From Nitratidesulfovibrio sp. SRB-5 (GTDB lineage: Bacteria > Desulfobacterota > Desulfovibrionia > Desulfovibrionales > Desulfovibrionaceae), in NCBI RefSeq assembly GCF_019931275.1, contig NZ_JAIOTY010000003.1, positions 62,001-126,000 of the forward strand: 64,000 bases of DNA, written 5' to 3'. Position 1 is the stretch's first letter, and every line of letters starts with the position of its first letter. The notes beneath the pieces were generated by a model, which saw nothing but the letters and a program-made list of their open reading frames with translations, ran no database searches and had not been told where the DNA came from. The translations under genes and the position numbers were made by a program. Of the stretch, positions 35,568 to 40,136 are shown in pieces.

Positions 35568-37010
35568 CTACTCCAGATCGTACTTCTTCAGTTTGTTGTG
35601 CAGGGTGGCGCGGGTGATGCCCAGACGGCGCGCGGCCTCGCTCTTGTTGTCGCCGGTTTCGCGCAGGGTGGCGATGATGGCCCGGCGTTCCAGATCCTCC
35701 AGCGACAGCCCGGCATAGGGGGCCAGCCCGTCGCCGTCGGCGGTGGCGTTCCCCGCACCCGCCCCGGCGTTTGCACCGCTTCCGCTGTCTCCGCCGCTTC
35801 CGGCAGTCCCGTTCCCTCCGCCTCCGAAATGCAGCGGCAGTTCGCGCTCGGTCACGTAGTCGCCGGTGGCCAGAATCACGGCGCGCTCGATGGCGTTTTC
35901 CAGTTCGCGCACGTTGCCCGGCCAGTCGTGGCGCAGCAGCATATCCATGGCCTGCGGGGTGAACCCCTTGAGGTGCTTGCGGTTCTTTTCGGTGTACCGA
36001 TCCAGGAAGAACGCGGCCAGCAGGGGCACGTCGCCCGCGCGCTCGCGCAGGGCGGGCACGTGCACGGCAATGACGTTGAGCCGGTAGTACAGGTCTTCCC
36101 TGAACCGCCCCGCCGCCGCCTCTTCGCGCAAGTCTCGGTTGGTGGCGGCAATGACCCGCACGTCCACGGTGAGCGGCGTGTCGCTGCCCACCCGCTGCAC
36201 CTCGCCCTGTTGCAGGGCGCGCAGCAGTTTTGCCTGCAACGTCAGGGGCATTTCGCCTATCTCGTCCAGAAACAGGGTGCCGCCGTCGGCCTGCACGAAG
36301 CGCCCTTCGCGCCGCCGGTCGGCCCCGGTGAAGGCCCCGCGCTCGTGGCCGAACAGTTCCGATTCCAGCAGGGTTTCGGTCAGCGCGGCGCAGTTCACGG
36401 TGACCAGCGGACGGCTGCTCCGGTGACTGGCCGCGTGCAGGGCGCGGGCCACCAGTTCCTTGCCGGTGCCCGATTCGCCTGTAATGAGCACGGTGGCCTC
36501 GGACGGGGCCACCGTGGCGATCATCTCCACCAGTTCGTGCATGGGCGCGCTGCGACCGATGATGCCGTGCGGCGCGCCCGGCGCCCCCGCCCCACCCTGC
36601 GACGACAGCCGCTCGCGCAGTTCGCGGTTTTCGCTGGCCAGGCGGGTGTGATCCAGCGCCCGTTCCAAGGTGTGGCGCAGCACGTCGAAATCCAGCGGCT
36701 TGATCAGGTAGTCGTAGGCCCCGGTGCGCAGTGCCTCCACGGCGGTATCCACCGACGAGAAGGCCGTCATGATCAGCACGGGCGTGGCCGGGTTCCAGTC
36801 CAGGATGTGGTGCAGCGCCGCTATGCCGTCCATGCGGGCCATGCGCACGTCCATGAGCACGGCGTCCCAGGCGCGCTGGCGCACCTTGTCCACGGCGGAA
36901 TCGCCGTCGTCGGCCTCTTCGGTGGCGTAGCCCCAGCCGCGCAACATGGTGCGCAGCATGGAGCGGTGCGCCGCGTCGTCGTCCACGATGAGGATGGTGG
37001 CGGTGCTCAT
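35568..37010 (-). CDS. zraR: ZraR-like sigma-54 response regulator
   Basis: 480 residues. Receiver domain with phospho-acceptor Asp54 ([12 protein letters not shown]); AAA+ domain with GESGTGKE, an intact GAFTGA loop and [13 protein letters not shown]; a Gly/Ser-rich linker (about residues 400-430); C-terminal Fis-type helix-turn-helix ending [13 protein letters not shown]. Phosphorylated dimers assemble into hexamers that activate sigma-54 promoters. It overlaps zraS by ATGA and is the partner of that kinase. The divergent zraP gene has a perfect sigma-54 promoter and is the obvious target. Confidence 0.93.
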
Positions 37011-39250
37011 GGCTTGTCATCCTTTGCGGGATTGCCGACCCGGGTTGAAGCTGCGCGCGCGCCGGATGTCGAGGACGCACCGGATGCGGAGGGCGCGGCG
37101 GGGGATGCCGCCGGGGCGGTGGCGGAAGCGGCATCATCCGCGCCGGGGCCTGCCGCGTCCTGCGCGTGCCCCTGCCCCGTCGCCTGCTCGGCGGGCAGCA
37201 GAAAGGTGATCTCCGTGCCCTGACCGAGGGCGGACCGCAGCGAAACCTCGCCGCCGTGAGCCTCCACGATCTTGTGCACGATGGCGAGGCCGAGGCCCGT
37301 GCCCTGACTTTTGGTGGTGAAATAGGGGTCGAAGATGGTGGCCAGATGCTCCGGCGCGATGCCGGTGCCCGTGTCGCGCACCGCAACCGCAATGCGGTTG
37401 CCCGGCGCGGCGGCAAGGCGCACGGACAGCTCCCCGCCGCTCGGCATGGCCTCCAGCGCGTTCAGGAACACATTGAGCAGCGCCTGCGAGAAGCGGTCCG
37501 GGTCCAGAAGCGCGCGGGGCAGGCTGCCGACCGCGCCGTCCTGCGCACCGGCCAGTGCATTGTCCGGGACACCTTCCGGGGCGCCGTCGGGCTCCACCCG
37601 CACGGTCACGCCCCGGTGGGCGGCGTCCTGCCGCACCAGCCGCAGCACGTGGTGCACCAGGAATCCGGCGTCCACCGGGCGGGGGGCGATGTCCGAGGGC
37701 CGGGCCAGCCCGATGAGGTCGGAGATGACCCGGTTCAGCCGTTCCACCTCCTGCACCATCACCCGCGCCGCCTCGCGGTCTTCGCTGCCCTCGTCGAAGC
37801 GGCTGCCGAAATAGGTGGCGTAGCCCTTGATGGAGCTGAGCGGGTTGCGCAGCTCGTGGGCCACCCCGGCGGCCAGGCTGCCGATGGCGGCCAGCTTTTC
37901 ACGGCGGCGCACCTCGTCTTGCAGGCGGCGCACCTCGCGCAGGTCGCGCAGGATCAGGATGGCCCCGGCATCGGCGGCATCCCCGGCGGCAATGCGCACC
38001 CCGCGCACGCTCATGGGCACGGGCGGGCCGCCCACCACGGGGCAGTCCAGGGTCACCTCCGCCCCCAGGGACGGGGCGGCATCGGCGTCCCCGCCGTCCG
38101 GCGCACCGCCGGTCAACCGCCCGGCCAGCTCCGCCAGCGGGGCGGGCAGCACCGCTTCCGGCGCGGCCCCGGCGGGCACCGCACCGCCCAGACGCAACAG
38201 GTCGCGCGCCGCCGCGTTGCAGGTGGCCACGCGGCCCGCGCCGTCCAGCACCACCAGCCCGTCGGGCAGGCTGGTGACCACGTGCAGGGCGAAGGACTGG
38301 GCCTGCCGCACCAGCCGCCGCGAGGCGCGGGCATGGCGCGACCACAGCAGCGAAAGCACACCGGCCCCGCCCAGCAGGGCCAGAATGGACAGCATGACCA
38401 GGGTATGCTGGCGGTCGGACGCGCGGGCCGCATCGAAGGGGGCCGTGTCCAGCGCCACGATGATGACCGGGGGCGGGGCGTCGCGCTCGGCCAGCGTGTC
38501 GGCCTCCATCTCGCGGCGCAGCCAGCCGGGCATGGACCCCATGCCGGATTCCGGGCTGCGCATGCCGTGGCCCATCATGTGGCCGCCCATGCCCATATGG
38601 CGCGCCGTGGGCCGCAAGGGAATGAAGGTGCGGTACACCAGAAAGGCGCGCTGGCCGCCCGCCTCCATCAGCCGCCAGCCTACCTCGTCGCGGGGTTGCT
38701 GGCGCACGTCCCCCCCATCGCGCCCATCGCGCCCGTCGCGCCCGTCGCGCCCCAAAGGAGCGGGCGGCGGGGGCACGGCCAGGGCCTCCATGGTGGCCGG
38801 GTCGGCCAGGGAGCGGCCAACCCACTGCGGGTCGCTGTGGGCCAGCACCACGCCCTGCCTGTCGGTGACGGCGATGAACTGGATGTCCGGCTGGTCGGCC
38901 ATTTCCTCCAGCAATATCTGCAAGCGCAGCTCGCCCCCGGTGCGCCCGCGCAGGCCGGTGCGCGCACCGGCCTCGAAGGCCCGGATCAGCGAAGCGCCCT
39001 TTTCGGACAGGATGCGGCGCATGGATTCCTGCTCGCCATCATGGTTCAGCACGGTAAGCACGGCCAGCACCAGGGCCAGGGCAACCGTGGCCCCGATGAT
39101 CAGCCACGGCGAGGGCAGGCTTTCACCCCCGCCCCGACGGCCGCCGCGCCCGCCACGCCCGAACAGGCCAGATTGGCCCTCGCGTGCGGCAGGCGGGGCC
39201 GCGTCCGTGCTGTCCGTCCTGATCGTATTGCTTGCGTTGTCCTTCGGCAT
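37007..39250 (-). CDS. zraS: ZraS-like sensor histidine kinase with Met/His-rich periplasmic loop
   Basis: 747 residues. One membrane segment at about 48-68, a periplasmic domain to about 278, a second segment, then PAS, HisKA with HELRNPLSS (His about 463) and HATPase with NALEAMP, DTGTGIAP and GTGLGLAI. The periplasmic domain holds a Met/Gly/His-rich stretch (HMGMGGHMMGHGM, about residues 217-229) resembling the tail of the divergent ZraP, plus an Arg-Asp-Gly repeat from a 9-nt array. The start at 39250 has AAGGAA eight bases upstream. ZraS kinases sense envelope metal stress and phosphorylate ZraR. The last 50 residues are Ala/Ser-rich and unconserved. Confidence 0.9.
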   Translation of the reverse strand: MPKDNASNTIRTDSTDAAPPAAREGQSGLFGRGGRGGRRGGGESLPSPWLIIGATVALALVLAVLTVLNHDGEQESMRRILSEKGASLIRAFEAGARTGLRGRTGGELRLQILLEEMADQPDIQFIAVTDRQGVVLAHSDPQWVGRSLADPATMEALAVPPPPAPLGRDGRDGRDGRDGGDVRQQPRDEVGWRLMEAGGQRAFLVYRTFIPLRPTARHMGMGGHMMGHGMRSPESGMGSMPGWLRREMEADTLAERDAPPPVIIVALDTAPFDAARASDRQHTLVMLSILALLGGAGVLSLLWSRHARASRRLVRQAQSFALHVVTSLPDGLVVLDGAGRVATCNAAARDLLRLGGAVPAGAAPEAVLPAPLAELAGRLTGGAPDGGDADAAPSLGAEVTLDCPVVGGPPVPMSVRGVRIAAGDAADAGAILILRDLREVRRLQDEVRRREKLAAIGSLAAGVAHELRNPLSSIKGYATYFGSRFDEGSEDREAARVMVQEVERLNRVISDLIGLARPSDIAPRPVDAGFLVHHVLRLVRQDAAHRGVTVRVEPDGAPEGVPDNALAGAQDGAVGSLPRALLDPDRFSQALLNVFLNALEAMPSGGELSVRLAAAPGNRIAVAVRDTGTGIAPEHLATIFDPYFTTKSQGTGLGLAIVHKIVEAHGGEVSLRSALGQGTEITFLLPAEQATGQGHAQDAAGPGADDAASATAPAASPAAPSASGASSTSGARAASTRVGNPAKDDKP

Positions 39251-39420
39251 GGAAAGTTTCCTTGCGGTGCGCGGTACCCGCCGGGGGCGGGGTGTTCGAA
39301 TCCGCGACACCTGTTCGATTTTCATACGCCATCCCGAGGGTAGCGTATAGTTTTTATACATCTGATCGGTTTTCGTGCAGGCCTTGCGGGGGCCTTCCGG
39401 GTGCGGAAAATGAAATTTCA
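39251..39420. promoter_or_regulatory. Upstream activator region between zraS and zraP
   Basis: AT-richer than its surroundings. Two dyads suit binding by the response regulator: GTATA / TATAC with a 5-nt spacer (39345-39359) and the 10-bp palindrome TGAAATTTCA (39411-39420). They lie 40-115 bases upstream of the sigma-54 promoter. No sigma-54 site facing zraS was found. Confidence 0.5.
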
Positions 39421-39459
39421 ACCTTCAATCACGGCATGTTACACGCATATTCCGCGCCT

Positions 39460-39475
39460 TGGCACGCCGGTTGCT
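39460..39475 (+). promoter_or_regulatory. Perfect sigma-54 promoter of zraP
   Basis: TGGCACGCCGGTTGCT fits the -24/-12 consensus TGGCACGrNNNTTGCW at all strongly conserved positions, 121 bases before the zraP ATG. A TTTT tract follows the -12 element. Confidence 0.93.
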
Positions 39476-39596
39476 TTTACCGGGGCAAGCAACAAGCGCA
39501 CCAGCCCCGCACCACAGTACATGGCCACGCCATCCACGGCGGATGCAGCGAAGACGCCAGGCGGGGCGGCAACGAATCAACACAGGAGCACACATC

Positions 39597-40136
39597 ATGA
39601 AGACCAAGCATCTCGTCCTCGGCACCGTCGCCCTCGCGGGCCTGCTCGCCATCACCGGCATCACCGACAGCGCCTTTGCCCGCATGGGCGGCATGGGCGG
39701 CATGGGCGGCCGCTGCGCCACCGGCGCGGTGTACAACTCCCTGACCCCGGAAAAGCAGGCCAAGTACGACGCCATATACAAGGAAGCGGACGCCCGCATC
39801 CAGCCGCTGAAGGACAAGGCCTGGGCCAAGCACACCGAACTGAACGCCCTGTCCGGCAACCCCAACACCAAGCCGGAAGCCATTTCCAAGCTGACGGGCG
39901 AACTGTCCGACCTGCGCACCCAGATCCGCAAGGAATACACCGCCCTTGACGAACGCCTGGAAAAGGAAGTGGGCGTCAACCCCGGTTATGGCCGCATGGG
40001 CCACATGGGCATGGGCGGCGGCATGATGGGTGGCCACGGCATGGGTCATGGTGGCATGGGTGGCGGCATGATGGGCGGCCAGGGCATGGGCCACGGCCCC
40101 ATGCATGACGGCCAGACGCCCCAGTCCAACCAGTAG
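39597..40136 (+). CDS. zraP: ZraP-like periplasmic metal-binding chaperone
   Basis: 179 residues. Signal peptide (MKTKHLVLGTVALAGLLAI, cleavage after AFA), a helical core with LTPEKQAKYDAIYKEAD and repeated Leu-spaced helices (about residues 50-125), and a C-terminal 45-residue tail made of Met, His and Gly (GHMGMGGGMMGGHGMGHGG in part). ZraP oligomers bind zinc and protect periplasmic proteins, and in E. coli ZraP also represses ZraSR signalling. The Met-rich tail suggests that Cu(I) or Ag(I) could also bind, an inference. The start has AGGAG nine bases upstream. A terminator follows. Confidence 0.9.
   Translation: MKTKHLVLGTVALAGLLAITGITDSAFARMGGMGGMGGRCATGAVYNSLTPEKQAKYDAIYKEADARIQPLKDKAWAKHTELNALSGNPNTKPEAISKLTGELSDLRTQIRKEYTALDERLEKEVGVNPGYGRMGHMGMGGGMMGGHGMGHGGMGGGMMGGQGMGHGPMHDGQTPQSNQ

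Follow-up and report, generated by a model that had tools for sequence, protein, structure and literature searches.

Results

Gene content and organization of the locus

Within the window, by which we mean the whole 64,000-nucleotide (64-kb) stretch that was analyzed, a zraP-like gene for a predicted periplasmic chaperone of 179 amino acids (39597–40136, + strand) lies divergent from a zraS-like sensor kinase gene (37007–39250, − strand; 747 amino acids) and a zraR-like response regulator gene (35568–37010, − strand; 480 amino acids), the latter two overlapping by 4 bp. A Pfam search showed that the regulator has a receiver domain, a sigma-54 activation domain with GAFTGA and a Fis-type helix-turn-helix (PF00072, PF00158 and PF02954), as in ZraR. 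In the kinase, the order is a first transmembrane helix (residues ~50–68), an sCache_3 sensor domain, a second transmembrane helix (~282–303), PAS, HisKA and HATPase; two helices thus flank a Cache-type domain as in ZraS, and the kinase core is 46% identical to that of E. coli ZraS. The chaperone scored 47.9 bits against Metal_resist (PF13801, cut-off 29.2), its top match among solved proteins is ZraP 3lay (E=1.6e-4), and a signal peptide, judged by eye, is apparent, as expected of an exported Metal_resist protein. The divergent gene order and the predicted sigma-54 promoter before zraP are likewise those of ZraPSR systems. The preliminary description of this DNA had proposed the Zra identity and the divergent layout, and both are borne out by the domains, the gene order and the best NCBIfam models, which are ZraR, ZraS and ZraP. 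All three proteins missed the NCBIfam equivalog cut-offs (ZraS 466.6 vs 479, ZraR 611.7 vs 760, ZraP 21.1 vs 200), and E. coli ZraS and ZraP score above their own. Because the scores fall below the cut-offs, we file the locus as Zra-type, that is, homologous and, under the NCBI rule, not equivalent to enteric ZraPSR. It is a known kind of bacterial envelope/metal stress switch and is ordinary as a metal-stress locus; the zraP-divergent layout is also found in E. coli and at about 70 loci across the phylum. An Rfam search of the region matched no family. The window's own genome carries a second ZraSR-like pair (L095, G000:C2:1248377-1256703), with no zraP-like gene found adjoining it and with a sensor loop that contains one Cys, some His and zero Met.

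The motif HMGMGGHMMGHGM of ZraS (residues 218–230; 38561–38599, − strand) sits between the two transmembrane helices, in the periplasmic sensor domain, where the preliminary description had claimed a Met/His/Gly motif. That description had placed it in 39251–40136; the motif is real but lies outside this range, which covers zraP and the intergenic region only. The motif is part of a 52-residue hypervariable insert of the sensor domain (residues 210–261; 38468–38623, − strand), which was delimited by sensor-domain alignments of 103 loci and contains 8 Met, 3 His and 8 Gly. Judged against the 64-kb window, the Met/His density of the loop is far above chance: at the M+H frequency of the window itself, the binomial P for finding 8 Met/His among 15 residues is ~2e-6 per position, over ~21,700 residues, and the densest Met/His stretch among the 39 non-overlapping long ORFs of the window is that of the ZraS ORF. 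Elsewhere in the sensor domain, a 9-bp tandem repeat at 38702–38752 encodes (GRD)n and differs in length among congeners. A single-sequence AlphaFold prediction of the domain gave a poor model (pLDDT 48).

ZraP ends in a tail of like composition, as had been described, although the length of 45 residues given for it was approximate: the Met/His/Gly block comprises 37 amino acids (residues 134–170; 39996–40106, + strand; 11 Met, 5 His and 19 Gly) within a tail of 52 (residues 128–179). Short 9-bp repeats, for example GCATGGGCG, occur in zraP. A ZraP search of named genomes returned one Desulfomicrobium locus only, because Met/Gly patterns are low in complexity.

The intergenic region contains conserved sigma-54 promoter-like elements

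The zraP promoter TGGCACG-CCGG-TTGCT (39460–39475, + strand), which the preliminary description had called a perfect sigma-54 promoter, is indeed exact: TGGCACGCCGGTTGCT is the sole exact match to TGGCACGNNNNTTGCW in the 64 kb, where allowing at most one mismatch gives 3 matches vs 1.2 expected, and it is invariant in the six congeners. A sigma-54 box was found upstream of zraP at 62 of 72 divergent loci, compared with ~12% of shuffled regions. From the GG at −25/−24 and the GC at −13/−12, transcription of zraP would start near 39486.

Alignment of the intergenic region of the six congeners revealed three conserved blocks, the second of which is this box. The first (39324–39361), located approximately 137–99 bp upstream of the zraP −24 element, consists of the inverted repeat ATACGC-N13-GCGTAT (39324–39348, unstranded), whose arms are invariant in the six congeners, followed directly by AGTTTTTATACAT. 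A second inverted repeat, GTATA-N5-TATAC (39346–39360, unstranded), is also invariant in the six congeners and lies inside the invariant GCGTATAGTTTTTATACAT (39343–39361). ATACGC-N13-GCGTAT is unique in the genome, and the GTATA-N5-TATAC site within GCGTATAGTTTTTATACAT is unique even with up to 3 mismatches. The occurrence of the block at a single site fits a regulator with one target region, and the palindrome pair is likely the ZraR enhancer site, with GTATA-N5-TATAC as its probable second part. A shared enhancer palindrome was also sought in other genera and was clear at the genus level only. In the relevant passages of PMC3333781, the nitrite regulator DVU0621 is reported to target DVU3384, which we presume to be the zraP orthologue in D. 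vulgaris. This hints at a nitrite link; the LurR/NrfR-like site that it suggests was not found in the window.

The third block, a stretch of ~26 bases that starts a few bases past the zraP box, holds a sigma-54-like element of opposite orientation, TGGTGCG-CTTG-TTGCT (39488–39503, − strand), which was identified by pattern scans and the congener alignment and faces zraSR. The gap between it and the zraP promoter is 12 bp (39460–39503 overall). Were it a promoter, the zraSR transcript would start near 39477. Starts at ~39486 and ~39477 would set the divergent transcripts off close beside each other, with a single stretch of DNA melted by either polymerase. Among the 72 divergent zra loci scanned, the opposed element with an offset of 25–28 bp is present in the window, in the five congeners and at roughly twelve further loci of the family that belong to other genera. 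The facing-pair pattern matched 20 times in the 149 family genomes, 17 times between zraP and zraS (in four genera) and three times at a Flp-type pilin locus, and a reversed control pattern matched once in the same genomes. Repeating the search in a second draw of 247 genomes from the order gave the same places and one more match, known as a scan match only, in a genus already seen. At the pilin locus, the facing pair lies upstream of a Flp-type pilin gene in three congeners (L202, L205 and L220, near position 1501), and a sigma-54 activator gene is located near it. In the collection of papers searched, nothing relevant to facing sigma-54 promoters was found.

The sequences thus present two opposed −24/−12 elements with one predicted melting region, conserved at orthologous loci, as a bidirectional promoter would have. 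We tentatively suggest that, in this clade of Desulfovibrionaceae, zraP and zraSR share one bidirectional sigma-54 promoter with a single melted region, such that each firing would yield either the chaperone or the sensor-regulator pair and feedback would begin at the promoter DNA, beyond metal alone. As a prediction, this two-way promoter is an unexpected and new part of the locus. A serious, if somewhat doubtful, alternative, which concerns this part of our explanation only, is that the opposed element is no promoter and instead belongs, as a conserved sequence, to the start region of zraP or to the site of another protein. It has two non-consensus positions (TGGTGC in place of TGGCAC), the case for it consists of predictions, and within the genus it lies in a wholly invariant block that runs from near the zraP promoter into the leader, all of which would fit such a role. 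However, the GG, C, TTGC and terminal W hold from genus to genus while the spacer bases and the 9–12 bp gap vary, as would be expected of a −24/−12 element; some of these positions were imposed by the search pattern, and an independent scan found the same sites. Furthermore, the presumed orthologous zraSR operon appears as sigma-54 dependent in the relevant part of Kazakov 2015 (PMC4641369).

The Met/His loop recurs among ZraS sensors

To place the loop of ZraS among its relatives, we drew loci from 149 genomes of the family, 297 genomes of the phylum and E. coli K-12. Absence of the loop from close orthologues would, according to the preliminary description, have refuted its reading; the loop is kept in all five other congeners found to carry a zraP-zraS pair. 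The congener loops differ in length and order (RHMGMGGMGGHMMGH, RHMDLGSMGGHMMGHGM and TMGMGGMGGMGGHMM), yet Met/His is retained in 6/6 congeners, the window included. In other genera, Met/His loops of dissimilar sequence occupy the same position (KMMSHMKMMGRRMGHKM, MRMRHMRMRDMQEMH and SRMMHQMMGHHMM), some loops are of a Cys type (CPGACPP) and some sensors have no insert. At the same place as the window loop, E. coli ZraS carries RHGMHNMPRC (PWRHGMHNMPRC). Met/His loops therefore do recur in the alignment over Desulfovibrionaceae and against enteric ZraS that had been proposed, but they are unlike in sequence and length and some are absent. The sharing of the signature between sensor and chaperone, which had been presented as special to this locus, is not so, since a loop and a tail of this kind are also present in the ZraS and ZraP of E. 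coli.

At least 6 Met/His per 15 residues were found at 21 of 103 loci. Compared with the rest of the sensor domain (n=90), the loop is enriched in Met (0.076 vs 0.039), His (0.045 vs 0.021) and Cys (0.019 vs ~0), with P = 2e-7 to 3e-9, uncorrected for relatedness. Many ZraS relatives with a zraP (L080-L082, L086, L088 and L089, among others) lack the loop or have one poor in Met/His, so the system does not need it. Loop M+H was 13.4% with an adjacent zraP and 8.8% without (P=0.0016, uncorrected); this excess disappeared after phylogenetic correction (P=0.25), and we rejected it. At seven loci (L080-L082, L085, L086, L088 and L089), two tandem zraP-like genes adjoin a ZraS with a short or Met-poor loop, and the zraS-proximal copy has little Met/His/Gly tail. 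In these alignments, the insert recurs among ZraS sensors, is hypervariable and is no local invention.

It is unlikely, in our view, that loop and tail are merely unconstrained linkers that gained GGC-ATG-CAC repeats independently, so that their likeness would be uninformative about a ligand. Low-complexity drift of this kind would account for the rapid change in loop length and sequence even within the genus, for the repeated change of the Met/His-rich state (~13 times by parsimony on a kinase-core tree with 101 loci), for the 9-bp repeats in zraP and the GRD-coding repeat of the sensor, and for the lack of co-variation in Met between loop and tail described below. On the other hand, it does not explain the enrichment of loop Met, His and Cys across the phylum when Cys is nearly nil elsewhere in the domain, nor the retention of Met/His in every congener while other positions change and their presence in E. 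coli.

Loop and tail are not matched in Met content

A loop and tail tuned to one ligand, as the preliminary description had envisaged, would be expected to vary together. Met showed no rank correlation across 74 loop-tail pairs (0.17, P=0.16), His a modest one (0.30) and Cys a clear one (0.57). In phylogenetic contrasts on these pairs, Met of loop and tail was uncorrelated (r=0.07, P=0.30), and the values were r=0.20, P=0.06 for His and r=0.23, P=0.02 for Cys. The weak matching of Cys and His may be real, and the matching of Met, on which the Cu(I)/Ag(I) idea was based, is not seen in these comparisons. At three loci (L066, L070 and L071), CPGxCPP-like ZraS loops stand beside ZraP proteins with several Cys.

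According to the preliminary description, loop and tail may compete for one metal pool, Cu(I)/Ag(I) in addition to zinc, and feedback could work by direct metal buffering. Both are Met/His-rich in this genus, Met-rich motifs in known copper proteins bind Cu(I)/Ag(I), and the second, marginal match of ZraP among solved proteins is a Met-rich copper efflux oxidase chain (E=0.05). We nevertheless regard this as very unlikely: Met does not co-vary after phylogenetic correction; zraP of D. alaskensis G20 (Dde_0111, a possible orthologue) was the most repressed gene at 15 uM Cu(II) (PMC8836040), so published data give no backing to copper induction; in E. coli, ZraR is reported to be activated by zinc and by envelope stress, ethanol being an example (PMC7657598); and sulfide from these organisms would probably leave very little Cu or Ag free. 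Neither the Cu(I)/Ag(I) proposal nor that of a single shared ligand is supported.

Discussion

We favor, with fair confidence, the explanation that the locus is a Zra-type module for envelope or metal stress, in which signalling from ZraS runs through ZraR and sigma-54 to zraP and most likely to zraSR as well, ZraS is damped by ZraP, the Met/His loop most likely serves as a metal arm and one bidirectional promoter appears to serve both transcription units. The sequence itself gives the gene identities, the layout, the composition of loop and tail, the two promoter-like elements and the conserved palindromes, and the further steps are inferred from these. ZraS would sense a periplasmic metal or an envelope signal through its single-Cache domain and phosphorylate ZraR, which would bind the palindromes at 39324–39361 and activate sigma-54 RNA polymerase at zraP and, most likely, also at zraSR. 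The polymerase would fire mainly rightward, from the consensus element toward zraP, and less often leftward, from the weaker element toward zraSR. Occupancy of the two would be mutually exclusive, and this would set the ratio of zraP to zraSR. The exported ZraP would act as a chaperone, bind metal and damp ZraS. The Met/His loop would sit between two sensor-domain strands as a flexible insert that evolves quickly. Most likely it coordinates metal as an arm, with ligands that depend on lineage: Met/His here and Cys or none elsewhere. In E. coli, ZraR binds upstream of both zraP and zraSR, and zraS drops in a zraR mutant under zinc (PMC7657598); in Salmonella, ZraP represses ZraSR (Appia-Ayme 2012, as cited in the relevant part of PMC7657598).

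The recurrence of a Met/His/Cys insert at one position of the sensor offers a defined peptide for mutation, and our survey shows that sensor and chaperone do not as a rule match in Met. If true, the sharing of one two-way sigma-54 promoter would offer a compact means of locking the amount of a sensor to that of its antagonist.

Comparison with known systems

The closest counterpart is ZraPSR (HydHG) of E. coli and Salmonella, which has the same divergence of zraP from zraSR, a sigma-54 box before zraP, an sCache-type sensor, a ZraR-type sigma-54 activator, a Met/His sensor loop (RHGMHNMPRC) and a Met/His/Gly ZraP tail. The window differs in that its loop is longer and richer, its ZraS has an extra PAS domain, and its ZraP core is weakly alike, such that BLASTP alone is not significant. 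E. coli ZraS fits the same sCache_3_2 model, more weakly than the ZraS of the window.

In D. vulgaris Hildenborough, DVU3381, DVU3382 and DVU3384, which we equate with the window genes by layout alone, form a similar circuit: in the relevant passages of Kazakov 2015 (PMC4641369), the regulator DVU3381 targets its own kinase operon, DVU3382-3381, and the nearby DVU3384, both sigma-54 dependent, as neither is flagged as being without a sigma-54 promoter. The regulator and its site are conserved in close species according to the corresponding passages of Rajeev et al. (PMC3333781), and a shared bidirectional promoter is not described in these passages of either paper. The orp operons of D. vulgaris are, in the relevant part of PMC3897727, another divergent pair dependent on sigma-54, with a single enhancer-binding protein that activates both; there, each promoter has its own IHF site, and facing −24/−12 elements are not described in that part. 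The Flp-type pilin locus of three congeners resembles the zra locus in its facing sigma-54 pair, but the gap is shorter, the pair is flanked on its other side by a sigma-54 activator gene and the arrangement is limited to these three. In E. coli, 155 bp separate the two predicted sigma-54 sites, which are oriented divergently in the usual way, whereas the pair in the window is facing and separated by 12 bp.
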